DNA from: Microbacterium enclense
Lineage (GTDB): Bacteria > Actinomycetota > Actinomycetes > Actinomycetales > Microbacteriaceae
Assembly (NCBI RefSeq): GCF_004022425.1
Contig: NZ_RBZY01000010.1
Location: 1 to 64,000 of the forward strand
DNA: 64,000 bases
Reading direction: 5' to 3'
Part shown: positions 36,262-48,444 of the stretch, one piece after another
Numbering within the stretch: the stretch's first letter is position 1
Layout: each line of letters opens with the position of its first letter
Made by a program: the position numbers and the translations under genes
The notes under the pieces: model-generated
Seen by the model: the letters and a program-made list of their open reading frames with translations, nothing else
Databases searched by the model: none
Told to the model about the DNA's origin: nothing

Positions 36262-37049
36262 CCGAGAACGGTGCTGCGAAGCAGGTCATCATCAAGAAGG
36301 ATGCCGACACCCTCGCCGACTACGTCGCGACGCGGTTCGTCAACCGCATCGTCAAGCGGGTCGCCGAGGGCAAGCGGATGCACATCTGCCTGACCGGCGG
36401 GACGATGGGCGGCGCGGTCCTGCGCTCCGCCGCCCGCGACCCTCGTGTGGCCGAGATCGACTGGTCGCTGGTGCACTTCTGGTTCGGCGACGAGCGGTTC
36501 GTGAGCCGCGACTCCGACGACCGCAACGACCGTCAGGCGCGTGCCGCGCTGTTGGACGGTCTCGACGTCCCCGCCGAGAACATCCACGCGGTCGCCGCGA
36601 CCGACGACGGACTCGATCTGGATGCCGCGGCGATCGCCTACGCGGACGAGCTCGCGCAGTTCGCCCCGTCCGACCGCAGCGAGACGGGACCGTGGCCGTC
36701 GTTCGACATCTGCTTCCTGGGCGTCGGACCGGATGCGCACATCGCCTCGCTCTTCCCCGACCGTCCCGAGATCTCGGTGACGGATCGGGCGACCGTGCCC
36801 GTCCGCGACTCCCCCAAGCCGCCGCCGGAGCGCGTGTCGCTCACGCGTCCGGTCATCAACTCGTCGAAGCGCGTCTGGATGGTCATCGCCGGTGCCGACA
36901 AGGCCGCAGCCCTCGGGCTCGCCCTCGCCGGTGCGAGCTACCAGAGCGTCCCGGCCGCCGGAGCCAAGGGGCGCCGACGCACCGCCTTCTTCGTCGACGA
37001 AGCGGCCGCCGATCAGGTGCCTCCGCAGCTCATCGATCGCGAATACTGA
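36258..37049 (+). CDS. pgl: 6-phosphogluconolactonase
   Basis: A 263-residue enzyme of the NagB/DevB fold that hydrolyses 6-phosphogluconolactone. It has CLTGGTMGGAVL near residue 47, FWFGDERFV near 75 and FLGVGPDAHIASLFP near 152 with the catalytic His. It ends the pentose phosphate operon. A hairpin at 37069-37098 follows. Confidence 0.95.
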   Translation: MTENGAAKQVIIKKDADTLADYVATRFVNRIVKRVAEGKRMHICLTGGTMGGAVLRSAARDPRVAEIDWSLVHFWFGDERFVSRDSDDRNDRQARAALLDGLDVPAENIHAVAATDDGLDLDAAAIAYADELAQFAPSDRSETGPWPSFDICFLGVGPDAHIASLFPDRPEISVTDRATVPVRDSPKPPPERVSLTRPVINSSKRVWMVIAGADKAAALGLALAGASYQSVPAAGAKGRRRTAFFVDEAAADQVPPQLIDREY

Positions 37050-37068
37050 CGCACGATTTCCTCTCGAC

Positions 37069-37098
37069 CGGGGTCGGATGCCACGGCATCCGGCCCCG
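37069..37098 (+). terminator. Terminator of the pentose-phosphate operon, made of a GGATGCC/GGCATCC pair
   Basis: CGGGGTCGGATGCC (37069-37082) pairs with GGCATCCGGCCCCG (37085-37098), with one G-T wobble and a tight loop, then TTCTGC. The top of the stem is the heptamer GGATGCC facing its reverse complement. Confidence 0.7.
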
Positions 37099-37230
37099 TT
37101 CTGCACGCCGGCCGGAACATCTCCTTGTTTTCGGCGGGGGGACCTGTCTACAGTGTGCGTCTGGGGGCATCCAGGACGGACCGACGACTCGCCCGCCGCT
37201 TCGTCGACCGACGCGGTTGGGAGCGTTCGG

Positions 37231-39759
37231 ATGTCATTCCATGGGCGTGAACGAGAATTACAGGTGGCCGCTGCCCTCTGCAGCATGCAGGAGGGGGCGG
37301 CCTGCCTCTTCGTGGGAGACACGGGCAGCGGGAAGTCCGCGCTCGCGCGGGAGATCGCTCGGCGCTGCGACACCGCGGTCGTCGCGGTCAGCCCGACTGA
37401 GCGGATGTGGCCGCTGTCGGGACTTTCGGCGTTCGCGGCGGGGCTCGGAGGCACGCGCGGAACGGCGGTAGACGCGGTCCTCGCTCGCGGGAAGGACTGG
37501 CCGGAGCAGGTCCTCGCCGAGGAGGTGAGTCGCACGCTGCACCTCGTGCGCGAACAGCCGTGCGTCCTGGTGATCGACGACCTGGATGCCATGGACAGCG
37601 CGAGCCTGACCGTCCTCTCCTACGTCGGTGCGCGGCTGCGCGGGACGGGCGTTCGCGTGCTGGCGACGGTGCACACGCTGGAGGCGCGGCTCGATTTCGC
37701 GGGGGTCATGCACACGCAGATCGACGCGCTCTCGTTCGAGGAGTCGGTGGCGCTCGCGCGCGACGTCATCGGCCCCGGTACCAGCCCCGCCGTCCTGCAC
37801 CTGGTCGCCGCGTTCACTGGCGGCGACGCCGGACTCATCTCGCGGGTGCGCCTGACCCCCGCGGAGGCCTCCGGCGAGGCGGCGCTGCCGTTGCCCCTTC
37901 GCGTCGTCCACGATCCGGTGCGCCGCGCGAGAGGGCTGTCGCGGCCCGTGGCCGACCCGCAGGTGTCCGCCCTCCTGGACCTGTTGTCGGTGGGACCGGT
38001 GTACGCGTACGAGGCGATGCGTTCGGCCGGTGCCGAGATCGACGTCCAGGTCGACGCGCTGATCGACGCGGGGCTCGTGACCGTCAGCGAGGGTCTCACT
38101 CGGATCAGCGATCCGGCGACCCGCCTGCGCCACCACGCCGCGTTGACACCGGAGGACCGACGCCGGCTGCACGCCCGCGCGGCCTGCGATCACGCTGCCG
38201 GGACCGCATCGCGACTCTGGCACGAGAGCTTCCTCCGCCCCACCGAGGATCGGCTCGGTCTGCTCGCCGCCGCCGTCGACCTCGCCGTGAACGGTGACAC
38301 GCTCCCCGCGATCGAGTTCGCGGAGCGGGCACTGGCCGGCGACGTGGATGCGGTCCAGCGGGATCGCGGCCTCGTCGAGCTGAGCGACGCGCTGGTCCTC
38401 GGCGGACACGACCTGCTCGGACAGCACTATCTCGGCCGGGCCGTGGACACCGCCGCCGCGGACGTCCGTGTGCGTGCGGCCATCGCCGCCGTGCGCGCCG
38501 GCGCACGGGTCGACCACGTCATCCGCGACGCCCTCCCCGCGACGGTGGAGTGGGAGGACGATGCGATCGCGACCGAACGGCTGCTCTGCGAGAGCGCCGG
38601 TCTCCACATGTCGCGCGGCGAACTCGATCTCGCCGTCGAGCGCGTCCGTGCGATCGTGGAGCGGGAAGCAGCGACCGACGAAACGCTGGTGGTGGCCCGG
38701 ATCCTGCGGGAGATGGGGATGGTGGTGCCCGAAGATCTGGCGGCGGCCGCCGATCTCACCGCGGCTCTGGCGCCGGAGACGTCGATCGAGGTGGCGACCC
38801 TGACGGCGACGGCCCTCCTCCTGCACGAACGGTATGCCGACGTCCGCGGCGTCGCGCAGGCGCTCCTGAACCGTGCCCCTCGCCCCGCCCCGATGTGGCG
38901 GGAACGACTCCTGCGCACCGTCGTCAGCGCGGAAGTGCGCGGCGGCGATCCGGTCGCCGCCCGCCAGGCGGTGGCGGCATGGCGACGGGAGTGGCTGCCC
39001 GGACGCGGACCGGATGCGGCGCGCACCCTGCTGCTCGCGCAGGCGGCGGCGATCGACCCCGCCGACCGGACCACCGCCGACCTCGTTCGGCAGGGACGCG
39101 ACCTGAGCCGGCGGGAGGGCGCGCCCGCGCTTCTGCCGTTCTTCGCCGCGGTCGAGGGCAGTCTCGCACTGACCGAGGGACGTTACGACGACGCTGTGAA
39201 CAGCCTGCGGGCCGCGCAACAGGCGGCGCCGGGCGACGATCCGGCGTTCCTCCGCATCGCCGCGGACCTGATCGAGGCGCTGTGGCTCACTGAGCGCTTC
39301 GTCGAGGCCCGAGCCGAGCTGACGCGCCTGGAGCTGTCGCTGGCGTCGCGCCCCCGTCGCTGGACGACGCTCGCGGTGGCGCGTTCGCACGCCGTGTGCC
39401 GGTCCGGTCGCGACGGGCGACGCGCCTTCGCCGAGGCAGAGGCCATCTACCGCAGCGATGATTCCCCCTACGAATACGCGCGGCTGCGCTCCGCGCAGGA
39501 ACGGTTCCTGCCCGCGCGCGAGGGCATTCGCGGCCCCGGGCCGAGCCAGCGCGACGCGCTCGCGGGCACAGACTTCACGACCGACGAGCAGGACGTCATC
39601 GTCCTGGTCGAGCAGGGGCTCCGCAACCGCGACATCGCCTCGACGCTGTTCATCTCGTTGCGCTCGGTGGAACTGCGTCTCACGCGCATCTACCGCAAGC
39701 TCGGTGTCGGTTCACGCGCTCAGCTCGTGGCCCACCTCCACGGTGCGGCCTCGGCCTGA
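37231..39759 (+). CDS. Large ATP-binding LuxR-family regulator (LAL)
   Basis: An 842-residue regulator from ATG 37231 (GGGAG nearby). The N-terminus is an AAA/STAND-like ATPase with Walker A GDTGSGKS (29-36) and Walker B CVLVIDDLD (111-119). A long helical, TPR-like middle follows. The C-terminal LuxR helix-turn-helix (about 785-840) has DEQDVIVLVEQGLRNRDIA and SVELRLTRIYRKLGV. LALs respond to metabolites and often control sugar or polysaccharide genes; MalT is the known model. Here it neighbours an exopolysaccharide locus and may control it. Its 3' end overlaps the convergent glycosyltransferase gene by 48 bases. Confidence 0.9.
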   Translation: MSFHGRERELQVAAALCSMQEGAACLFVGDTGSGKSALAREIARRCDTAVVAVSPTERMWPLSGLSAFAAGLGGTRGTAVDAVLARGKDWPEQVLAEEVSRTLHLVREQPCVLVIDDLDAMDSASLTVLSYVGARLRGTGVRVLATVHTLEARLDFAGVMHTQIDALSFEESVALARDVIGPGTSPAVLHLVAAFTGGDAGLISRVRLTPAEASGEAALPLPLRVVHDPVRRARGLSRPVADPQVSALLDLLSVGPVYAYEAMRSAGAEIDVQVDALIDAGLVTVSEGLTRISDPATRLRHHAALTPEDRRRLHARAACDHAAGTASRLWHESFLRPTEDRLGLLAAAVDLAVNGDTLPAIEFAERALAGDVDAVQRDRGLVELSDALVLGGHDLLGQHYLGRAVDTAAADVRVRAAIAAVRAGARVDHVIRDALPATVEWEDDAIATERLLCESAGLHMSRGELDLAVERVRAIVEREAATDETLVVARILREMGMVVPEDLAAAADLTAALAPETSIEVATLTATALLLHERYADVRGVAQALLNRAPRPAPMWRERLLRTVVSAEVRGGDPVAARQAVAAWRREWLPGRGPDAARTLLLAQAAAIDPADRTTADLVRQGRDLSRREGAPALLPFFAAVEGSLALTEGRYDDAVNSLRAAQQAAPGDDPAFLRIAADLIEALWLTERFVEARAELTRLELSLASRPRRWTTLAVARSHAVCRSGRDGRRAFAEAEAIYRSDDSPYEYARLRSAQERFLPAREGIRGPGPSQRDALAGTDFTTDEQDVIVLVEQGLRNRDIASTLFISLRSVELRLTRIYRKLGVGSRAQLVAHLHGAASA

Positions 39760-41079
39760 TCCCGACCGGCGCGAGAACGCGGCCGTCTCCACCCCGTCGT
39801 GGTCATCGGCGCGGGCGATCTGAGCTACCGACCGACGGTCGGGACTCTTCCACCGGCCATCCGACGGTCGTCCGAGCGCCGCCAACAGCGCCCGCAGGCA
39901 CAGCACCGCATCCCAGACGCGCAGGAGCGGAAACAACACCATGGTGGGGTGCGGACGCCGTGGGGCGACCGCGCAGAAGAACACGGTCATCATCGTGTCC
40001 ACGAAGAGGAGCCCGACCAGGAACGGCACCGCGGGGAGGGCCGCGGCCACCGCCTCGGCGACATCGGCCGCGGGTCCGCTCAGCACCCGGCTCGCAATGG
40101 CGGCGAGCGCCGCCAGCAGCAGCAGAGGGACGACGGCCGCCAGCACGAGGCTGGCCACCACGGTCTCGGTCGCGAACACGCCCACCGACGTCCAGAACAG
40201 CCCCGGACGGATGCCGTGGCGCCGCACCGTCTGCCAGAAGCCCAGGCTCCACCGGCGCATCTGCGCCGAGTAGTCGCGGAACACGGCGGGGTCCTGGGTC
40301 TCGGCGATGGCGCAATCGGGATGGAACGCGATACGGCCCAGCCGCTTCGCGTGCACCTCGAAGGTCATGTTGAAGTCCTCGATGGACAGCCCGGGCGCAT
40401 CGATGTCGATGCGATCGAGCACGTCGGTGCGATACAGGCTGGCGAAGCCCGGGACGATGGCGACGGCGTCGGCGGAGCGCGCCGCCTGTCCGAACTTGTG
40501 GAGGTACTGGGTGCAGATGTACGTGCGTTCCCTGTAGGACGTCAGCAGGCGTCCCCCGCGCGTCGCGGGGACGTCCGCGGCCGTCGTCGCGCGTCCCGCG
40601 ACGGCGACCACGCTCGGGTCGGTGAACAGGGGCAGGCCCGTGCGCAGGTAGTCCCGGCGCGGCCGGGAATCGGCATCCAGAAGGAGGAGGAGAGGGAACC
40701 GCTCGGGGATGCGGAACCGCTGCAGCCCCGCGCGGATGGCTCCGGCCTTGCCGCGGTTCGGGGACAGGTCCCACGCGGTCGCGCCCGCATCCCGGGCGCG
40801 CTCGACCGTGGCGTCGTGCGAGCCGTCCGAGACGACGAAGACGTTCTGGCCGGGCACGAGGGCGCGGGCGGCGGCCACCGCATCCGCGATGACGAGCTCC
40901 TCGTCGTGCGCGGCGATGAGGATCGCCACCTCCGCCGGGCGGAAGTACATCGACGGCGAGAGGAGCCGGGGGCTGGTCCGCCGCTCGGCGAGGAGACGAG
41001 CGACGGCCACCGTGCCCCACACCAGGGTGGACACGCCGATCGTGCAGACAGCGACGACGAAGACGAGCGCGGCGGTCAT
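39712..41079 (-). CDS. Processive family 2 glycosyltransferase (membrane polysaccharide synthase)
   Basis: A 455-residue GT2 enzyme from ATG 41079 (GGAAGGG upstream). An N-terminal membrane helix (about 4-28) precedes the catalytic domain with IAAHDEE (56-62), VVSDGSHD (82-89), the metal-binding DADS (135-138), IEDFNM (233-238) and QMRRW (273-277). The Q/RxxRW motif is shared by processive synthases such as hyaluronan, PNAG (PgaC) and NodC enzymes. Helices at about 295-330 and 345-385 form the translocation channel region. It probably makes and exports a beta-linked polymer. The polar tail overlaps the LAL gene on the other strand. Confidence 0.88.
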   Translation of the reverse strand: MTAALVFVVAVCTIGVSTLVWGTVAVARLLAERRTSPRLLSPSMYFRPAEVAILIAAHDEELVIADAVAAARALVPGQNVFVVSDGSHDATVERARDAGATAWDLSPNRGKAGAIRAGLQRFRIPERFPLLLLLDADSRPRRDYLRTGLPLFTDPSVVAVAGRATTAADVPATRGGRLLTSYRERTYICTQYLHKFGQAARSADAVAIVPGFASLYRTDVLDRIDIDAPGLSIEDFNMTFEVHAKRLGRIAFHPDCAIAETQDPAVFRDYSAQMRRWSLGFWQTVRRHGIRPGLFWTSVGVFATETVVASLVLAAVVPLLLLAALAAIASRVLSGPAADVAEAVAAALPAVPFLVGLLFVDTMMTVFFCAVAPRRPHPTMVLFPLLRVWDAVLCLRALLAALGRPSDGRWKSPDRRSVAQIARADDHDGVETAAFSRRSGSGRGRTVEVGHELSA

Positions 41080-41145
41080 GGCATCCCTTCCTCCACCGGC
41101 GGGCTGGCACGACCGTACGCGCTCCTCCGCGCGGCGGCTGCCGCA

Positions 41146-41207
41146 GAACCCGCACGGGAGCGTGCGGGTTCCCGCACATCGGCCTGCGGGACGCGGCATC
41201 CCGCAGG
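41146..41207. promoter_or_regulatory. Two hairpins between the synthase and UDP-sugar dehydrogenase genes
   Basis: In the 286-base divergent region, GAACCCGCAC (41146-41155) pairs with GTGCGGGTTC (41162-41171), and CCTGCGGGA (41183-41191) pairs with TCCCGCAGG (41199-41207). Both are perfect. They may be operators or leader structures of the polysaccharide locus. The rest of this gap shows nothing I can name. Confidence 0.45.
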
Positions 41208-41365
41208 ATCGGCCGGGAGCGCTTGACCGCCCCGGTGGCGCGGCGGAGGGTGGGCGGCGGATCAGCAGCGACGCTCGATCGGCTGCCTCGTCCGGAACAC
41301 CCGAATGTCCCGCGACCGCGGCCCAGAGCGCCGACGATCGTGGGGCCCCCGCTAGGAGGATGACG

Positions 41366-42697
41366 ATGTCCACACTCGATCTACGTGTTGCTGCTCCGCC
41401 CGTCGCAGCTGCGCCGAAGCCGGTCGCTCCGGCGCTGTTCGACTTCGATATCGCGATCGTGGGGCTCGGCTACGTCGGGCTTCCCACCGCCCTGGCGTAT
41501 CGGGCCAGCGGTTCCCGTGTCCTGGCTCTGGATGCCTCGTCCCGCCGACTCCGCACCATCGCCGCGCGGGGAGCCGACCTGATCGATTCGGACCGCGAGC
41601 GCCTCGAGGCCGCTCTGCGCAGCCCGCGCGATTTCCGCCTCACCAGTGATGCGTCGGAGCTCACCCGCGCGGCGGCGATCGTCGTGTGCGTCCCCACCCC
41701 GGTCGACCATCAGCAGGTCCCGGACCTCGCCCCGTTGCGGTCCGCGTGCGCCACCGTCGTCGCCGCGGCCCGCCCCGGCCAGCTCATCATGCTGACGTCC
41801 ACGACCTACGTCGGCTGCACCCATGACCTCGTCGAACAGCCCCTTCGCGAGCGCGGGTTCGACGTGGGGCGCGACGTGTTCGTCACGTTCAGCGCCGAAC
41901 GGATCGACCCCGGCAACGTCGGCTTCGCGCAGGAGGCCGTCCCCCGTGTCGTGGGCGGTGCCACGCCGCAGTGCCAGGAACAGGGAGTGCGGCTGCTCTC
42001 GCAGTACGCGGCCCGCGTGCATCCGGTGTCGAGCCTGGCGTCGGCGGAGATGACGAAACTGCTCGAGAACACCTTCCGCGCCGTGAACATCGCCCTGGCC
42101 AACGAGTTCGCCGACATCTGCGGAGCTCTCGACGTTCCGGTGACCGAGGTGATCGAGGCCGCCAGCACCAAGCCCTACGGGTTCATGGCGTTCTACCCGG
42201 GCCCGGGGGTGGGGGGTCACTGCATCCCCTGCGATCCGCACTACCTCCTGTGGCAGCTGAAAGCCCTGCACGTGGATGCCGGAGTGATCACCGAGGCGAT
42301 GACGCGGATCGCCGCGCGACCTCGTCGTGTGGTCGACCGCGTCCGCGACGTGCTGGGACGCGCGGGGAAGGGGACGCTCGGCGCCCGCGTGCTCGTCGTC
42401 GGCGTCACGTACAAACCCGACGTCGCCGACCTCCGGGAATCGCCCGCCCTCGAGATCATCGACGGCCTCATCGACGCCGGCGCCGAGGTCCAGTACGTCG
42501 ACACGCACGCCCCGCACATCCATCTCGATTCCGGCCGCGAACGGGATTCCCTCGCGGATCCGGCGGCATTCCACCCCGACATCGTCCTCGTCCACACGCG
42601 TCACCACGACTGCGATCTCGGCTGGCTGGACGGCGACGCCGTCGTCCTGGACGGCACGTACCGCAGCTCCGACATCGCCGGGCGGGTGCTGCTGTGA
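41366..42697 (+). CDS. UDP-sugar 6-dehydrogenase (UDP-GlcNAc/WbpA-like)
   Basis: 443 residues from ATG 41366, six bases after AGGAGG (an ATG at 41360 abuts the SD and is unlikely). The NAD fold has IVGLGYVGLP (31-40). The catalytic Cys (about 286) lies in YPGPGVGGHCIPCDPHYL, and VTYKPDVADLRESPAL marks the C-terminal UDP-binding domain. KPYGFMAFYPGPG is closest to UDP-N-acetylhexosamine dehydrogenases such as WbpA/WbpO, so the product is probably a UDP-N-acetyl-hexosaminuronate. UDP-glucose as substrate cannot be excluded. Its stop overlaps the epimerase start. Confidence 0.88.
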   Translation: MSTLDLRVAAPPVAAAPKPVAPALFDFDIAIVGLGYVGLPTALAYRASGSRVLALDASSRRLRTIAARGADLIDSDRERLEAALRSPRDFRLTSDASELTRAAAIVVCVPTPVDHQQVPDLAPLRSACATVVAAARPGQLIMLTSTTYVGCTHDLVEQPLRERGFDVGRDVFVTFSAERIDPGNVGFAQEAVPRVVGGATPQCQEQGVRLLSQYAARVHPVSSLASAEMTKLLENTFRAVNIALANEFADICGALDVPVTEVIEAASTKPYGFMAFYPGPGVGGHCIPCDPHYLLWQLKALHVDAGVITEAMTRIAARPRRVVDRVRDVLGRAGKGTLGARVLVVGVTYKPDVADLRESPALEIIDGLIDAGAEVQYVDTHAPHIHLDSGRERDSLADPAAFHPDIVLVHTRHHDCDLGWLDGDAVVLDGTYRSSDIAGRVLL

Positions 42698-43758
42698 GCG
42701 GCGTCCCGATCTACCCGCCGGCCGACACCACCACCCACCGCACGCTCGTCACCGGTGGAGCGGGGTTCGTCGGGAGCCACCTCGTCGAGCACCTCCTGGC
42801 CCTGGGGGATGAGGTCGTCGTTCTCGACGATCTGTCGACCGGGTCGGCGCGCAATCTCGCCGGTGCCGCGGAGAACCCGCGTCTGCAGATGATGGACGGA
42901 TCGATCCTGAACACCAAGACCGTGGGTCAGGCGATGGAGTCCTGCGACCGTGTGTTCCACCTCGCCGCCGCCGTCGGGGTGAAGCTCATCGTGGAGCAGC
43001 CGCTGCGGGGCCTGCGCATCAACATCCACGGTACCGAGAACGTGCTCACCGCCGCGATCGAGCGGCAGGCCTCGGTGCTGCTGGTCTCCACCAGCGAGGT
43101 CTACGGAAAGAACACCGCCGATCGTCTGCGCGAGGACTCCGACCGCATCCTCGGCGACCCTCTCCTGTCCCGCTGGACCTACGCCGGCGCGAAGGGAATC
43201 GACGAGGCCTTCGCGAAGGCCTACTGCGACCAGGAGGGTCTCGACGTCGCGATCGTCCGGCTGTTCAACACCGTGGGTCCGCGGCAGACGGGGCGCTACG
43301 GCATGGTCTTCCCGAACCTCGTCGGACAGGCGCTCCGCGGGCACCCGCTCACGGTGTTCGGCGACGGGAAGCAGACCCGGTGCTTCTCGGCGGTGGAGGA
43401 CGTCGTGCCGGCGATGGTCCGGATCGAACGCGACCCGCGTGCCCGAGGGCAGGCGTACAACCTCGGCGGCGCCCGCGAGATCTCGATCCTCGACCTCGCC
43501 CGGGAGATCATCCGCACCCTCGACAGCCGGAGCGACATCGAGCTGATCCCCTACGACCAGGCCTACGCGCCCGGTTTCGAGGACATGCGGCGCCGGGTGC
43601 CCGACAACAGCAAGGCGAATGCGCTCGTGGGATACGAACCGCAGACCTCGCTCACGACGACGATCCTGCGCGTCGCCGCGGATCTGCTCGCCCGCGAGCG
43701 ACTCTCCTCCGACGCCATGCCCCTGGTCGGGACGGGCGCCCTCCGCGGGGTGCTCTGA
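42694..43758 (+). CDS. NAD-dependent nucleotide-sugar epimerase/dehydratase
   Basis: A 354-residue extended SDR enzyme from GTG 42694. It has TGGAGFVG (20-27), Ser in STSEVYG and the catalytic Tyr163/Lys167 in YAGAK. RLFNTVGPRQTGRYGMVFP and FGDGKQTRCF are typical of UDP-sugar 4-epimerases and UDP-uronate decarboxylases. It follows the dehydrogenase with a 4-base overlap, so it may act on the UDP-uronate just made, for example as a C4-epimerase. The exact reaction is open. Confidence 0.85.
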   Translation: MSGVPIYPPADTTTHRTLVTGGAGFVGSHLVEHLLALGDEVVVLDDLSTGSARNLAGAAENPRLQMMDGSILNTKTVGQAMESCDRVFHLAAAVGVKLIVEQPLRGLRINIHGTENVLTAAIERQASVLLVSTSEVYGKNTADRLREDSDRILGDPLLSRWTYAGAKGIDEAFAKAYCDQEGLDVAIVRLFNTVGPRQTGRYGMVFPNLVGQALRGHPLTVFGDGKQTRCFSAVEDVVPAMVRIERDPRARGQAYNLGGAREISILDLAREIIRTLDSRSDIELIPYDQAYAPGFEDMRRRVPDNSKANALVGYEPQTSLTTTILRVAADLLARERLSSDAMPLVGTGALRGVL

Positions 43759-45560
43759 TGTGCGGGATCACGGCGTTCCGCGGCCCGTCGGCGGCGACCC
43801 GCGCCCATGAGGCCCTGGCCCGGTTGGAGTACCGGGGCTACGACTCCGCCGGGATCGCCGCCCGCCGGTCCGACGGAACCGCCGTCCACGTGCGCACCCT
43901 CAGCGGTGTCGCCGCGCTCGTGATGGGCCTGGAGAGGGACCCGGATGCCACGACCGCGGCGATCGGTCACACCCGGTGGGCCACGCACGGCGGAGTGAGC
44001 GAGCGCAACGCTCACCCGCTGGAGGACTGCGGCGGGCGGCTCTACGTCGTGCACAACGGCATCATCGAGAACGCCGACGTCCTCCGGGAGCGGCTGCGTT
44101 CGGCCGGCCACCGCCTGGCGACCGACGTCGACACCGAGGTGGTCGTTCACCTGCTCGAGGAAGCGGTGAGCGTCGGCTTGGACCTCGGTCGAGCGCTCGC
44201 CGACACCGCCGCCCTCATGGAGGGCTCCTGGGCCGTCGTCGTGTTGGACACCCGGACCGGTGCGCTCGCCGGCACGGCCCACGGTTCACCGCTGATCCTG
44301 GCCGACACGGGCGACGGCGTGTACCTCGCCAGCGATGTCGGGGCGGTGGCCCCGTTCGTGTCCGCCTTCCGAGTCCTCGAGGACGACGACGTGGTCGACA
44401 TCGACGCCGAGGGCACCCGGTGGCATCGTGCGGGTGGCAGCCGTCGCCCGCGCGGACTGTGGCCGGTTCCCGCGATCTCGCTCCTGGCCAGCAGCGGACG
44501 GCACACCGACCACATGGGCAATGAGATCGACGAGCAGCCGATCGTCGCTCGTCGCGTGCTCGATGCCCTCTCCCCCGGCATCCGCGACGGAGCGCTCTGG
44601 AATCGGTTGGGTCTTCCTCCCCTGGAGAACGTCGATCGCGTCGCCGTCCTCGGCTGCGGGACGTCGCTGCATGCCGGACGTGCACTCGCCGGGGTGTTCG
44701 CGAGGGCGGGGCACCTCCCCACTCGCGCACTGACCGCGAGCGAGGCCGGGCACGAGGTGTGGGAGCCGCGCACCCTCGTCGTGGCGATGAGCCAGTCCGG
44801 CGAGACCGCCGACGTTCTGCGCGCGCTCGACGGGCTGCCCTCCGGGCACGCGACGGTCCTGGCTCTCACGAACAACACCGCGTCCTCGCTCGCGCGCCGG
44901 GCCGATGCCGTGATCGACTGCCTCGCGGGCCCGGAGATCGGCGTCGCGGCCACGAAGACATTCGTCGCCCAGGTTCTCACGGGTGCGTGCGTCGCCCTGT
45001 CCGGGCTGTGGTCGTCGCCGCGCGCGGACGCGGCCACGCTCGAAGCGGATTTCACCGCCCTCGCGGGAACGCCCGACGCCCTGTCCGGTGCCCTGCACGC
45101 CTGGCGGGACCGCGCCGCGGAGCTGGCGGGCGATCTCGTCACGGCATCCGGCTTCCTCTTCCTCGGGCGCGGCGCGGGCCTGGTCTACGCGGCCGAGGGC
45201 GCCCTGAAGCTCAAGGAGCTGTCCTACCGCTGGGCCGAGCCTCACGCCGCCGGCGAGCTCAAGCACGGCCCGCTGGCCCTCGTGGATGCCGGCACCCCCG
45301 TGTTCGTCGTCGACGACGGCGACCCGCGGCTCGACGTCGACATCGCCGAGGTCCAGGCCCGCGCTGGTCGCGTGATACGTGTGGGCGAACGTTCGCTCCG
45401 TGTGGGAGGGCTGGAGCTTCAGCTGCCCCGACGCGGCCCGTCATGGGGACCGTTGGAGTCCGTGATCCCGCTGCAGCTGTTCGCCCGAGAGCTCGCGCTG
45501 CGACTCGAGCGCAACGTCGACAAGCCGCGCAACCTCGCCAAGTCGGTGACCGTCGCATGA
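43758..45560 (+). CDS. glmS: Glutamine--fructose-6-phosphate aminotransferase, cluster paralogue
   Basis: A 600-residue GlmS-type enzyme. The N-terminus MCGITAFRG supplies the catalytic Cys for glutamine hydrolysis; HTRWATHG and VHNGIIEN complete the glutaminase domain. Two SIS domains follow (CGTSLHAGR, MSQSGETADVLRAL) and the tail ends DKPRNLAKSVTV. It makes glucosamine-6-phosphate for UDP-GlcNAc. Its place inside the polysaccharide operon, overlapping the epimerase stop by one base, suggests a dedicated amino-sugar supply beside a housekeeping copy elsewhere, which this window does not show. Confidence 0.9.
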   Translation: MCGITAFRGPSAATRAHEALARLEYRGYDSAGIAARRSDGTAVHVRTLSGVAALVMGLERDPDATTAAIGHTRWATHGGVSERNAHPLEDCGGRLYVVHNGIIENADVLRERLRSAGHRLATDVDTEVVVHLLEEAVSVGLDLGRALADTAALMEGSWAVVVLDTRTGALAGTAHGSPLILADTGDGVYLASDVGAVAPFVSAFRVLEDDDVVDIDAEGTRWHRAGGSRRPRGLWPVPAISLLASSGRHTDHMGNEIDEQPIVARRVLDALSPGIRDGALWNRLGLPPLENVDRVAVLGCGTSLHAGRALAGVFARAGHLPTRALTASEAGHEVWEPRTLVVAMSQSGETADVLRALDGLPSGHATVLALTNNTASSLARRADAVIDCLAGPEIGVAATKTFVAQVLTGACVALSGLWSSPRADAATLEADFTALAGTPDALSGALHAWRDRAAELAGDLVTASGFLFLGRGAGLVYAAEGALKLKELSYRWAEPHAAGELKHGPLALVDAGTPVFVVDDGDPRLDVDIAEVQARAGRVIRVGERSLRVGGLELQLPRRGPSWGPLESVIPLQLFARELALRLERNVDKPRNLAKSVTVA

Positions 45561-45604
45561 CCGAACCGGCGGCGCGCCCGTCACGCCCGAGAAAGGTCCT
45601 GCCC

Positions 45605-47050
45605 ATGAATCCCGTGCTCCCCCGTCCCCGGAGGCGACGGCGTCGCCTCCTCGGCGTGGTCGCCGCTCTCGCCGCGGGCGCGATCACCGTCGCCGGTCTC
45701 GCCCTCCCGTCCACCCCCGCAGAAGCCGCCACGCGCACCGTCGTGAGCCTCACGTTCGACGACGCGAACGCCAACCAGCTCGCAGCGCTCCCGGCGCTGA
45801 AGGCCAACGGCATGAAGGCGACCTTCTACATCCCGTCCGGGTTCATCGGAGCGGCGGGACACATGACCCGGACCGACCTCACCGCGCTCGCGAAAGCCGG
45901 TCACGAGATCGGCGGGCACACCGTGAACCATCCGGACCTCGCCCAGGTGAGTGTCGACGAGGCGAAACGTCAGATCTGCATCGATCGCAAGAACCTCGCC
46001 TCGTGGGGTTTCACGGTACGCAGTTTCGCCTACCCGTTCGCCTCGAGCACCCCCGACGTCGAGAAGGCCGCCGCCGACTGCGGTTACAGCAGCGCCCGTC
46101 TGCTCGGCGACATCCGCAGTCGGTTCGGATGCCCGGAATGCGCCTATGCGGAGTCGACCAAGCCCGCCGACCGGTTCGCGCTCAAGGCTCTGGACCAGGT
46201 CGACGCCACGTGGACGCTCGACGACCTGAAGCAGGGGGTCACGAACGCCGAGAACAACGGCGGCGGGTGGGTGCAATACACCTTCCACGACGTGTGCGCC
46301 GACGCCTGCAGCGACCTCGCGGTCTCTCCCGCGCTCTTCGCGGATTTCCTGTCCTGGCTCAAGACGCGACAAGCCGCCGGGACCGTCGTGAAGACCATCG
46401 GCAGCGTGGTCGGCGGCACGGCCAAACCCGTCGTCGACGGACCGTCGGTGCCCGCCCCCACCGGTGCGACCAACGGCATCGTGAACGCCGGCATGGAGCA
46501 GGGCGCACCGGACTGCTGGATGCGCGGCGGATGGGGCACGAACACCCCGGCGTTCGAGACCGGCTCTCCCGCGCACACGGGCGCCATCTCCAGCGGCATC
46601 ACGATGACCGGGTACGGGGACGGGGATGCCAAGCTCCTCCCCCAATTCGATCTCGGGCAGTGTTCGCCCACCGTGACACCCGGGCGGACGTACACGCTGC
46701 GCGAGTGGTACCTCGCCAGCGGGGTGACCCAGTTCGCCGTCTACCTCCGCTCCACCTCGGGCGCATGGTCGTACTGGACATCGAGTCCCTGGTACGCCTC
46801 CGCGCCGGAATGGACGGAAGCGGACTGGACGACCCCGGCCATCCCGGACGGGTACAACGGGATCAGCTTCGCCCTGACGATCTTCGGCGACGGGACGCTG
46901 CGCACCGACGACCTGGCTCTCTACGACAGCGAGGGTGCGCCGCCCCTCGCGCCGGTCACCGGCGTCACCCGCGTCGCTCCCGACACCATTCCCCTCCCCG
47001 AGGGTCCCGTCGAGGTCTTCCGACCGACCGAGAGCGACGTCACCGGATGA
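45605..47050 (+). CDS. Secreted polysaccharide deacetylase (NodB/CE4) with C-terminal carbohydrate-binding-like domain
   Basis: A 481-residue protein from ATG 45605, after GAGAAAGG; an upstream in-frame ATG at 45557 overlaps the glmS stop and would lengthen the n-region unusually. The signal peptide has an Arg-rich n-region, a hydrophobic core (about 15-33) and a likely cut after AEA near 41. The NodB domain has TFDDA (50-54) and the metal motif HTVNH (105-109). The last 150 residues are a Trp/Thr-rich jelly-roll-like region resembling carbohydrate-binding modules. It probably removes N-acetyl groups from the exported polymer. Confidence 0.85.
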   Translation: MNPVLPRPRRRRRRLLGVVAALAAGAITVAGLALPSTPAEAATRTVVSLTFDDANANQLAALPALKANGMKATFYIPSGFIGAAGHMTRTDLTALAKAGHEIGGHTVNHPDLAQVSVDEAKRQICIDRKNLASWGFTVRSFAYPFASSTPDVEKAAADCGYSSARLLGDIRSRFGCPECAYAESTKPADRFALKALDQVDATWTLDDLKQGVTNAENNGGGWVQYTFHDVCADACSDLAVSPALFADFLSWLKTRQAAGTVVKTIGSVVGGTAKPVVDGPSVPAPTGATNGIVNAGMEQGAPDCWMRGGWGTNTPAFETGSPAHTGAISSGITMTGYGDGDAKLLPQFDLGQCSPTVTPGRTYTLREWYLASGVTQFAVYLRSTSGAWSYWTSSPWYASAPEWTEADWTTPAIPDGYNGISFALTIFGDGTLRTDDLALYDSEGAPPLAPVTGVTRVAPDTIPLPEGPVEVFRPTESDVTG

Positions 47051-47790
47051 TCCGGCGCACGGCGGTGGCGGGCGCCCTCGGGCTGGTCGTCGCCGCCGTC
47101 GCCGCCGGGTGCGCGCCCGCGCTCGCCCCGCTCCCCGAGACCGGATACCCGTGGCACACCGACATCGTCGCCACGACCTTCTGGGTCGGCGAAGTCTTCG
47201 ATCCGAACGCCGCCGACGGCAGCCAGCGCATCTCCACCTACGATTCCCACTGGTGGGAGTCCTACGGCGGCTGCGACGGCATTGTGCGGAACGGCGAGTG
47301 CCGCACCGAAGCCCGCACCGCGGCCGACGACTACTTCCCCACGGCGATGACGCCGCGAGAGAATCCGTTCTACCTCGATCTGCCGTACGACGACGTCAAC
47401 GATGCCGTGGGCTTCGCGGAACGCGGTGAGGTGATCCCCTGGGCCGCGGAGCACCCGTACGCCGCCGACGTCGACGACCGTACGGTGAGCCTCATGAAGA
47501 ACCGGTGGGTCGTCCTGCGCAAAGGAGCTCGCCTCTGCTACGGACAGATCCAAGATGCCGGTCCCGGCGAGTACCGTGACGCCGCGTACGTCTTCGGCTC
47601 CGACGATCGCCGTCCGGACAACGCCCGCTTCAACGGGGCGGGCCTGGACGTCTCCCCCGCGCTCAACGGCTGTCTGGGATTCACCGACCTCGACGGCCAA
47701 GACGACCGCGTCGACTGGGCGTTCGTCGACGACGATGACGTCCCGGACGGCCCGTGGACCAGGATCGTGACCACCAGCCCCGTACGGTGA
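47047..47790 (+). CDS. Secreted lipoprotein of the polysaccharide locus, unknown function
   Basis: A 247-residue protein whose ATG overlaps the deacetylase stop (ATGA). The signal peptide ends in VAAVAAGC, a lipobox with lipidated Cys near 22. The mature part is rich in Trp, Asp and Tyr. It has WVGEVFDPNAADGSQRIST, a Cys-containing YGGCDGIV, ENPFYLDLPYDDVND and a closing CLGFTDLDGQDDRVDW. I do not recognise a characterised family; the pattern recalls secreted proteins next to polysaccharide genes in other actinobacteria. It may bind or modify the polymer at the cell surface. A terminator follows. Confidence 0.8.
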   Translation: MIRRTAVAGALGLVVAAVAAGCAPALAPLPETGYPWHTDIVATTFWVGEVFDPNAADGSQRISTYDSHWWESYGGCDGIVRNGECRTEARTAADDYFPTAMTPRENPFYLDLPYDDVNDAVGFAERGEVIPWAAEHPYAADVDDRTVSLMKNRWVVLRKGARLCYGQIQDAGPGEYRDAAYVFGSDDRRPDNARFNGAGLDVSPALNGCLGFTDLDGQDDRVDWAFVDDDDVPDGPWTRIVTTSPVR

Positions 47791-47794
47791 ACCG

Positions 47795-47829
47795 GAAGAG
47801 ACCGGATGCCAGTGGCATCCGGTCTCTTC
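47795..47829. terminator. Bidirectional terminator between polysaccharide locus and rbpA
   Basis: A perfect 16-bp stem, GAAGAGACCGGATGCC at 47795-47810 with GGCATCCGGTCTCTTC at 47814-47829, has an AGT loop. It lies between the convergent stops at 47790 and 47841 and contains the GGATGCC/GGCATCC pair at its top. Confidence 0.85.
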
Positions 47830-47840
47830 TGTGCGGGGGT

Positions 47841-48194
47841 CTACTGGCCGCGGCGCTCGCGCAGCTGCTGCAGCGCGTCGTCGAGGAGGGACGCCGCTTC
47901 CTCGTCGGTGCGGCGCTCCTTCACGTAGGCCAGGTGAGTCTTGTAGGGCTCGGACTTCGCGAGAGCCGGCGGGTTGTTCTTGTCGCGACCGGCGGGAAGG
48001 CCCGAGTGCGGGGAGTCGATGGTCTCGGGGATCTCGGCGTCGGGGATACCAGCGGCGAAATAGCGGACGGTCTCATTGCCGAGCGCATCCCAGTACGACA
48101 CCGCGACGCGGTCGGCGTGGAATCCGTGATCCTGTTCCCCCATCGGGCCCGCGCCGACGCGCGTGCCGCGAATGGCGTTGCCGCCAGTGGCCAT
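47841..48194 (-). CDS. rbpA: RNA polymerase-binding protein RbpA
   Basis: A 117-residue actinobacterial protein starting MATGGNAIRGTRVGAGPMGE and containing YWDALGNETVRYFAAG. RbpA binds sigma factor and RNA polymerase and stabilises open complexes. The start lies one base after the secG stop, so the genes are co-transcribed. The zinc-site cysteines of the Streptomyces protein are absent, as in many relatives. Confidence 0.95.
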   Translation of the reverse strand: MATGGNAIRGTRVGAGPMGEQDHGFHADRVAVSYWDALGNETVRYFAAGIPDAEIPETIDSPHSGLPAGRDKNNPPALAKSEPYKTHLAYVKERRTDEEAASLLDDALQQLRERRGQ

Positions 48195-48195
48195 G

Positions 48196-48444
48196 TCAGA
48201 GCTCCGCGAACTTGGTGAGGAGACCGAGACCGACGATGGTGAGGAACCACACCAGCGCCAGCACGATCGTGAATCGGTTGAGGTTGCGCTCGGCCAGGCC
48301 GGACGAGCCGAGTGCCGAGCTCATGCCGCCGCCGAACATGTCGGACAGGCCGCCACCACGCCCCTTGTGGAGCAGGATGAGCAGAGTCAGCAGGAGGCTG
48401 GTCACGCCCAGGAAAACCTGCAGGACGAACTCGAGAATCTGCAC
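48196..48444 (-). CDS. secG: Preprotein translocase subunit SecG
   Basis: An 82-residue protein starting at GTG 48444, after GAAAGG. Two membrane helices (about 3-23 and 57-76) flank the SecG loop KGRGGGLSDMFGGG. It is the third subunit of the SecYEG channel. Its place after tpiA is conserved in actinobacteria, but the strong hairpin between them suggests its own promoter. Confidence 0.94.
   Translation of the reverse strand: MQILEFVLQVFLGVTSLLLTLLILLHKGRGGGLSDMFGGGMSSALGSSGLAERNLNRFTIVLALVWFLTIVGLGLLTKFAEL

Follow-up and report, generated by a model that had tools for sequence, protein, structure and literature searches.

The six genes at positions 39712 to 47790 of a 64,000-nucleotide stretch of Microbacterium enclense DNA (assembly GCF_004022425.1, contig NZ_RBZY01000010.1, positions 1 to 64,000; the whole stretch is hereafter called the window) probably form a self-contained cassette for one synthase-type surface polysaccharide, which would contain amino sugar, be partly de-N-acetylated, and draw on a short-chain dehydrogenase/reductase (SDR) of the decarboxylase type. 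Synthase-dependent surface polysaccharides are a known kind of product; the set that joins a predicted decarboxylase-type SDR to a core lipoprotein of predicted beta-barrel fold appears to be a new variant, not described in the literature searched. A first-pass annotation, made from the sequence alone, had described the six genes as standing together, with the five rightward ones coupled, and overlaps of 4, 1, 4, and 4 bases (GTGA, A, ATGA, and ATGA) between those five confirm it. The genes are as follows.

39712..41079, minus strand: glycosyltransferase of family 2 (GT2), hyaluronan-synthase-like membrane protein, 455 amino acids (aa); PF13641 (4.8e-15), PF00535
41360..42697, plus strand: nucleotide-sugar 6-dehydrogenase, UDP-N-acetylhexosamine (UDP-HexNAc) class, 445 aa; PF03721/PF00984/PF03720; TIGR03026 at 351 bits
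42694..43758, plus strand: SDR, UDP-uronate decarboxylase-like, GTG start, 354 aa; PF01370/PF16363
43758..45560, plus strand: GlmS paralogue, 600 aa, SIS and glutamine amidotransferase domains; TIGR01135
45557..47050, plus strand: CE4/NodB de-N-acetylase, 497 aa; PF01522 (4.9e-21) at residues 59 to 178 only
47047..47790, plus strand: lipoprotein with a predicted double-psi beta-barrel (DPBB) domain (approximately residues 33 to 243), 247 aa; lipobox pattern

Conservation and co-occurrence of the cassette

The gene set is a real, selected unit. An orthologue group of the GT2 was found in 17 of 150 genomes of the family, including that of the window (E ≤ 5e-103; the next match lies at 1.2e-16), and a profile of the lipoprotein matched 16 genomes of the same draw, all of them within the 17 (both genes in 16, GT2 only in 1 [G133], lipoprotein only in 0, neither in 133; Fisher 1.2e-20, a statistic that ignores shared ancestry). 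The first-pass annotation had called the lipoprotein an orphan, a label that no longer applies to a protein that never occurs without the GT2 in the family sample and is a core part of the locus. Among the 16 other family loci with the GT2, the dehydrogenase and SDR were present in all 16, NodB and the lipoprotein in 15 each, and GlmS in 11. The five genes that we define as the core (GT2, dehydrogenase, SDR, NodB, and lipoprotein) occurred together in 14 of the 16, the exceptions being one locus without NodB (L036) and one without the lipoprotein (L043); three loci are rearranged (L041, L042, and L046).

The same association extends to other actinomycetes. When named GTDB genomes were searched with the lipoprotein profile, at least 538 relatives were confirmed. 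The best 80, chosen by lipoprotein alone, were mapped; since the best were taken, the set is biased toward close relatives, it includes pairs of loci from a single genome, and several of its members duplicate genomes of the family draw. They span 27 genera by record title (hand count), including Microbacterium, Arthrobacter, Pseudarthrobacter, Prescottella, Nakamurella, Pseudonocardia, Aeromicrobium, Cryobacterium, Lentzea, Amycolatopsis, and Quadrisphaera. Counting tblastn matches of at least 80 bits (the locus maps omit GT2 and LAL regulator matches below 60 bits), we found all five core genes in 68 of the 80 loci, from 23 genera, and 4 of the 12 loci short of the full set are stretches of less than 20 kb. 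By gene, the counts were 73 for GT2, 74 for the dehydrogenase, 73 for the SDR, 73 for NodB, 38 for GlmS, and 39 for the LAL regulator described below. The comparison of gene order across actinobacteria that the first-pass annotation had recommended shows the window's order and strands (GT2 on the minus strand, then dehydrogenase, SDR, and lipoprotein on the plus strand) in 43 of the 72 loci where all four are present and other arrangements in the remaining 29. Residue conservation given below comes from alignments A2 to A5, which, once filtered for redundancy and length and thinned by hand, represent 39, 32, 32, and 47 of the 80 loci.

In a sample of the class, a cassette-type GT2 (E ≤ 1e-100) was present in 7 of 394 genomes, all 7 of which also carry the lipoprotein and a dehydrogenase match above 650 bits. 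Four further class genomes (G694, G353, G331, and G664) have such a dehydrogenase and no cassette-type GT2, and one (G585) has a weaker, split lipoprotein match, again with no cassette-type GT2. Lipoprotein relatives occur in 5 of 396 genomes of a phylum sample, including that of the window. The lipoprotein family is wider than the cassette: relatives with no further cassette genes in the stretch examined were seen in L166 and L167 (20 kb each) and in three loci of one genome (L049, L053, and L054) for which only about 1.5 kb of flanking sequence is included.

A hyaluronan-synthase-like glycosyltransferase

The first-pass annotation had noted a GT2 with a QxxRW motif, which we place at residues 273 to 277 (QMRRW). 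This motif (Q273xxR276W277) and the other residues expected of the family (D85, D89, D135xD137, and E234D235) are the same in all 40 aligned sequences. The AlphaFold2 (AF2) model of the protein (pLDDT 89.3) is nearest to the Chlorella virus hyaluronan synthase (Z of 29.1, root mean square deviation of 3.3 Å over 373 residues), and the alignment, covering residues 1 to 425 of the model, spans the GT-A domain as well as the membrane helices that follow QxxRW. Bacterial cellulose synthases (Z of 24 to 27) and a yeast chitin synthase (23) come behind, which agrees with the earlier proposal of a synthase-dependent polysaccharide locus. At the level of sequence, the GT2 profile returned weak matches that include hyaluronan, chondroitin, heparosan, and cellulose synthases, with a plain glycosyltransferase as the best, and the single sequence had no match among solved structures. 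Fold and motifs together support assignment to the hyaluronan-synthase type, insofar as the fold is that of a predicted model.

Predicted precursor enzymes: dehydrogenase and SDR

Against solved structures, the dehydrogenase profile was best matched by Cap5O (251 bits) and a UDP-ManNAc dehydrogenase (243 bits), followed by CalS8 (187 bits), a GalNAcA-type dehydrogenase (159 bits), and UDP-glucose dehydrogenases (130 bits or less). The single sequence gave the same picture, with 171.5 bits for Cap5O versus 21.3 bits for the UDP-glucose dehydrogenase 1dli, which we take to be that of Streptococcus pyogenes. The enzyme does not pass as a UDP-glucose 6-dehydrogenase of the HasB type. It also reaches no NCBIfam equivalog cut-off, including those for UDP-ManNAc dehydrogenase (201 of 750 and 192 of 459 bits) and TviB (161 of 592 bits). 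Its loop, GVGGHCIPCDP, in which H287 and C288 are invariant in 33 of 33 sequences, agrees with Cap5O and UDP-ManNAc dehydrogenase and not with CalS8 (GGSC); a GGHC as opposed to a GGSC loop separates the UDP-HexNAc dehydrogenase class from others. By profile and loop, the protein is nearest to the UDP-HexNAc dehydrogenases, in keeping with the amino-sugar precursor that had been proposed. A dehydrogenase 56 to 57% identical to that of the window also has a NodB protein and another GT2, which matches chitin synthase, as close neighbors in the compact gene sets at L162:9937-14312 and L163:6249-11177.

The first-pass annotation had left the SDR as an epimerase or decarboxylase and predicted a uronate-containing polymer. 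The best solved relative of the SDR profile is human UXS1, a decarboxylase, at 245 bits, followed by 8vr2 (210 bits), the epimerase/dehydratase 6wjb (173.5 bits), WbgU (approximately 148 bits), the ArnA decarboxylase (136 to 141 bits), and WbpP (135 bits). All 33 aligned sequences share T133, S134, E135, Y163, and K167, within the motifs STSE135 and Y163xxxK167, which are accompanied by RRRVPD. Where UDP-GlcA 4-epimerase has Ser128, which binds the carboxylate, the enzymes UXS, UAXS, and ArnA have Glu (PMC7984243). With Glu and not the epimerase Ser at this position, the enzyme is most likely UDP-uronate decarboxylase-like, and a uronate may therefore be a mere intermediate, which makes the hyaluronan-like charge of the earlier prediction uncertain. 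A precedent exists in Bacillus cereus, in which a UDP-GlcNAc 6-dehydrogenase and UXNAcS together yield UDP-N-acetylxylosamine (PMC5078965). Given the nearest relative of the SDR and its Glu, N-acetylxylosamine may be part of the polymer, either in place of a uronate or together with one.

Deacetylase and GlmS

The catalytic residues of CE4 enzymes are intact in the window's NodB (D68, D69, H121, H125, and H244, among them the metal triad D-H-H and the base D), and a hydrophobic N-terminal stretch resembles an export signal by eye. The secreted deacetylase of the first-pass annotation is upheld in that much, but its carbohydrate-binding-like tail is a by-eye judgment on some 200 C-terminal residues that have no Pfam match and are conserved together with the catalytic part in mapped loci. 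Active-site changes were seen in 17 of 67 NodB homologues from 52 loci, every one in Arthrobacter or Pseudarthrobacter; this open reading frame (ORF) set is incomplete, as tblastn finds NodB in 73 loci. In the altered proteins, D69 is changed, H125 is replaced by L, and H244 is mostly replaced by Y (e.g., L082:12328-13797). Within the ORF set, 12 of the 17 share their locus with an intact copy, while 5 loci show the altered form only. It is possible that these paralogues serve as noncatalytic polymer-binding partners.

The GlmS paralogue scores 478 bits against TIGR01135 (cut-off, 418 bits), and the genome has another copy elsewhere, at 38% identity. Its identity as a paralogue is thereby borne out, but with 38 of the 80 best loci carrying it, GlmS is an optional accessory of the cassette, for precursor supply, and not a constant member.

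A lipoprotein with a predicted double-psi beta-barrel

The lipoprotein has the lipobox AAGC by pattern (residues 19 to 22), and a lipobox pattern was found in 54 of 80 homologues, whose start codons are uncertain. Neither Pfam nor NCBIfam nor the sequences of solved structures yielded a match to the window's protein, and 18 family members gave no meaningful Pfam match, DPBB included. In structural comparison of the AF2 model (pLDDT 88.6), which returned entries titled DPBB, expansin, barwin-like, and GH45, the leading rows are PA4485, kiwellin, expansins, the papain inhibitor SPI, cerato-platanins, a loosenin, and GH45, with a viral chitosanase and designed DPBB proteins in lower rows (Z of 7.9 to 5.4 over the whole range). 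A layout of D-x-GP followed by D-(L/V)-S is, by eye, common to the lipoprotein and DPBB_1 proteins. A search of the window's own genome with PF03330 (DPBB_1) returned 0 matches. Four cysteines (C76, C85, C164, and C209) are invariant, and the protein carries a long insert. For E49, S63, D66, S148, Q167, D178, D201, and S203, conservation extends to at least 47 of 48 members as well as to three distant relatives, two of which also keep D170. We conclude that the lipoprotein is predicted to adopt an expansin-like DPBB fold; a role in binding, loosening, or cutting a polymer would be consistent with this fold.

Proposed pathway and alternatives

Taken together, the gene set, its order, conservation, and co-occurrence, the motifs, and the predicted folds suggest the following pathway, in which each chemical step, the sugars, export, regulation, and the part played by the beta-barrel protein are inferred. 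Where present, GlmS would provide more glucosamine-6-phosphate. The dehydrogenase would oxidize UDP-GlcNAc at C6 to UDP-HexNAcA, on which the SDR would act most likely by decarboxylation, giving a product of the UDP-N-acetylxylosamine type, and less likely by inversion at C4. The GT2 would polymerize the SDR product, with or without GlcNAc, and pass the chain through the membrane. Outside, NodB would remove some of the N-acetyl groups, while its tail may hold the polymer, and the membrane-anchored DPBB lipoprotein might bind, loosen, or cut the chain. The LAL regulator would probably set expression through a shared divergent promoter. A more specific form of this proposal, which we consider unlikely, is a poly-aminopentose: an exported N-acetylxylosamine chain, alone or alternating with GlcNAc, that is de-N-acetylated to a chitosan-like polycation without C6 and served by a dedicated, anchored, expansin-like protein.

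Several observations weigh against a synthase-type cassette with a decarboxylase-type SDR. The fold of the lipoprotein comes from a predicted model, and Z scores below 8 may indicate a shared arrangement and not kinship; Foldseek gave no match for it at E ≤ 0.001, and hhalign against DPBB_1 proteins from the same taxonomic order (7 of the 8 found were used) gave a nonsignificant P of 0.063, in the expected register. Two class genomes (G594 and G749) have a strong lipoprotein match and no cassette-type GT2. PcManGT, an annotated mannosyltransferase, aligns to the GT2 model at Z of 27.6, and fold alone is therefore insufficient proof of a processive, exporting synthase. The SDR fails every NCBIfam cut-off among the 25 of its 29 matches listed, the top one being LegB, a 4,6-dehydratase (163 versus 475 bits), and the decarboxylase equivalogs faring no better (NF008872, 130 versus 294 bits; ArnA, 112.7 versus 777 bits); its second-best solved relative, 8vr2, carries no named function. 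More distant GT2 proteins (E of 1e-90 to 1e-55) occur in 27 of 394 class genomes, 0 of which have the lipoprotein, and in 6 of the 7 such loci that were mapped (L152 to L158, around 6 to 14 kb in each), a GT2 of 42 to 47% identity lies within about 4 kb of an SDR of 48 to 57% identity; the seventh has no SDR match, and none of the 7 has a dehydrogenase match. The SDR of these loci has the same motifs as that of the window, and its substrate is therefore not necessarily a UDP-uronate. Pfam confirmed a PIG-L deacetylase in one distant locus (L154) and a WbqC-like protein in another (L157), for which reason a lipid-linked product is conceivable. We rejected as evidence the finding that a dehydrogenase accompanies the distant GT2-SDR pair genome-wide (10 of 10 genomes), because dehydrogenases at E ≤ 1e-80 are present in 201 of 394 class genomes. 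The distant loci give the impression of modules that have recombined in the service of amino-sugar polymers or glycolipids.

Were the SDR a C4-epimerase like TviC or WbpP, or were it to act elsewhere, the product would be a polyanion of GlcNAcA or GalNAcA, of the hyaluronan or Vi kind and partly de-N-acetylated, as the first-pass annotation had read it. A dehydrogenase of the UDP-HexNAc class and a hyaluronan-synthase-like GT2 would both suit such a product, the TviB and TviC models do match the dehydrogenase and SDR (at 160.8 and 86 bits, far below cut-off), and the ArnA decarboxylase scores no better than the epimerase rows, at 136 to 141 bits. In L162 and L163, where the dehydrogenase stands beside a GT2 and NodB and no SDR match lies within 20 kb, UDP-uronate may therefore be polymerized directly. 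Yet all 33 aligned SDRs have E135 at the position of the epimerase Ser, and the UXS1 decarboxylase outscores 6wjb, WbgU, and WbpP by a clear distance, so we regard a uronate polyanion as unlikely.

It is also conceivable that the GT2 glycosylates a lipid carrier or makes a short, NodC-like oligosaccharide that NodB then deacetylates, as the PcManGT match and the distant loci with a related SDR, one of them with a PIG-L deacetylase, would allow. We consider this improbable given the full-length match that includes the membrane helices after QxxRW, with hyaluronan synthase at the top; an export signal (by eye) on the deacetylase and an anchored beta-barrel protein, both of which suit a polymer outside the cell; and the absence of a flippase family among the seven proteins scanned. 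Finally, the pairing of NodB and GT2 follows the logic of Streptomyces MatAB (PMC5972031, PMC4391728), and the GT2 might make plain poly-GlcNAc while the dehydrogenase and SDR serve another, co-encoded wall polymer. This we consider very improbable: the GT2 reaches 34.1 bits against the PgaC/IcaA equivalog TIGR03937 (cut-off, 422.3 bits), the best 80 loci have the dehydrogenase and SDR as regularly as the GT2, and MatB is a single fused GT2-CE4 protein, with no mention of a dehydrogenase in either of those two papers.

Relation to known systems

One survey of synthase-dependent polysaccharides names five: cellulose, acetylated cellulose, poly-N-acetylglucosamine (PNAG), alginate, and Pel (PMC7112194). 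Among actinobacterial systems, Streptomyces matAB, which directs a PNAG-like extracellular polymer, resembles the cassette in being a small locus with a GT2 and a CE4 deacetylase (PMC4391728, PMC5972031). It differs in that MatB fuses GT2 and CE4, which are separate genes on opposite strands here (PMC5972031), and in having MatA, of unknown function, and an adjoining IcaC-like acyltransferase; SDR, GlmS, and a beta-barrel lipoprotein are not mentioned in the parts of these sources available. The ica and pga loci for PNAG likewise combine a membrane GT2 with a separate de-N-acetylase (PMC7112194, PMC4391728), but the cassette GT2 is not PgaC by NCBIfam, and the cassette has a dedicated dehydrogenase, SDR, and beta-barrel lipoprotein. 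The UDP-GlcNAc 6-dehydrogenase and UXNAcS of B. cereus are likened to the dehydrogenase and SDR by the description of their pathway, acting on UDP-GlcNAc, and not by sequence (PMC5078965).

The GT2 fold over its full length and the placement of precursor genes next to the synthase recall the has operon of hyaluronan synthesis. That operon uses a UDP-glucose dehydrogenase, whereas the cassette has a UDP-HexNAc-class dehydrogenase by profile together with an SDR, a deacetylase, and a beta-barrel protein. Expansins, loosenins, RlpA-type proteins, and GH45 are alike to the lipoprotein by predicted fold; it differs from them in its long insert and four invariant cysteines, and no significant sequence match links them. 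No published description of this gene set was found in the literature searched, which excluded most subscription journals, and the earlier statement that no characterized system has this set agrees with that search.

If the proposed pathway is correct, the cassette would add one, in actinomycetes, to the few synthase-dependent chemistries known, and a predicted DPBB lipoprotein family without a Pfam entry would gain a likely role. The pairing of a dehydrogenase with a decarboxylase-type SDR makes polymer composition readily testable. To our knowledge, poly-aminopentoses are not a known class of surface polymer, and one, if real, would be a new class spread across many actinomycete genera.

Regulation and genomic setting

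Two further features adjoin the cassette.

37231..39759, plus strand: LAL-type LuxR regulator (AAA_16 ATPase, TPR, and GerE helix-turn-helix); PF13191, PF00196
41080..41359, no strand: divergent control region that separates the GT2 gene from the dehydrogenase gene; TGCGGtttCCCGCA-type palindromes lie at 41146 to 41210 (inverted repeats I5 to I7)

The first-pass annotation did not mention the regulator, which, together with the shared control region, accompanies the locus in Microbacterium. The LAL and GT2 genes are convergent, their 3′ ends overlapping by 48 bases, and 14 of 16 family loci have a LAL homologue next to the GT2 (a partial match in one). From this position, we infer that the LAL protein is a probable regulator of the cassette. 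The TGCGGtttCCCGCA-type palindromes are nested, and their blocks align across 19 Microbacterium regions, including that of the window, as the best-conserved part by eye. Conserved next to a LAL gene, they are the likely operator.

The absence of Wzx, Wzy, chain-length, and initiating-transferase families that had been noted earlier holds for the seven proteins scanned, in which no match was found; the wider window and the genome were not screened. The host assembly comprises 3.4 Mb in 149 contigs. Within it, the block of approximately 10.5 kb sits between pgl (ending at 37049) and secG/tpiA, in the interval 37049 to 48196, and the closest named loci, which are from Microbacterium, have secG and tpiA as neighbors too. 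Among ten same-genus genomes without the lipoprotein, seven were surveyed for an empty site. The 14-kb stretch examined contained no pgl or opcA match in L168, L169, and L172, and L174, which has no pgl match, has about 2.4 kb between opcA and secG. The gap between pgl and secG measures about 0.4 kb in L170 and in L171, and it measures about 0.5 kb in L173. Given the closeness of pgl and secG in these cassette-free genomes, the block is a module that is either present or absent within a central-metabolism neighborhood.

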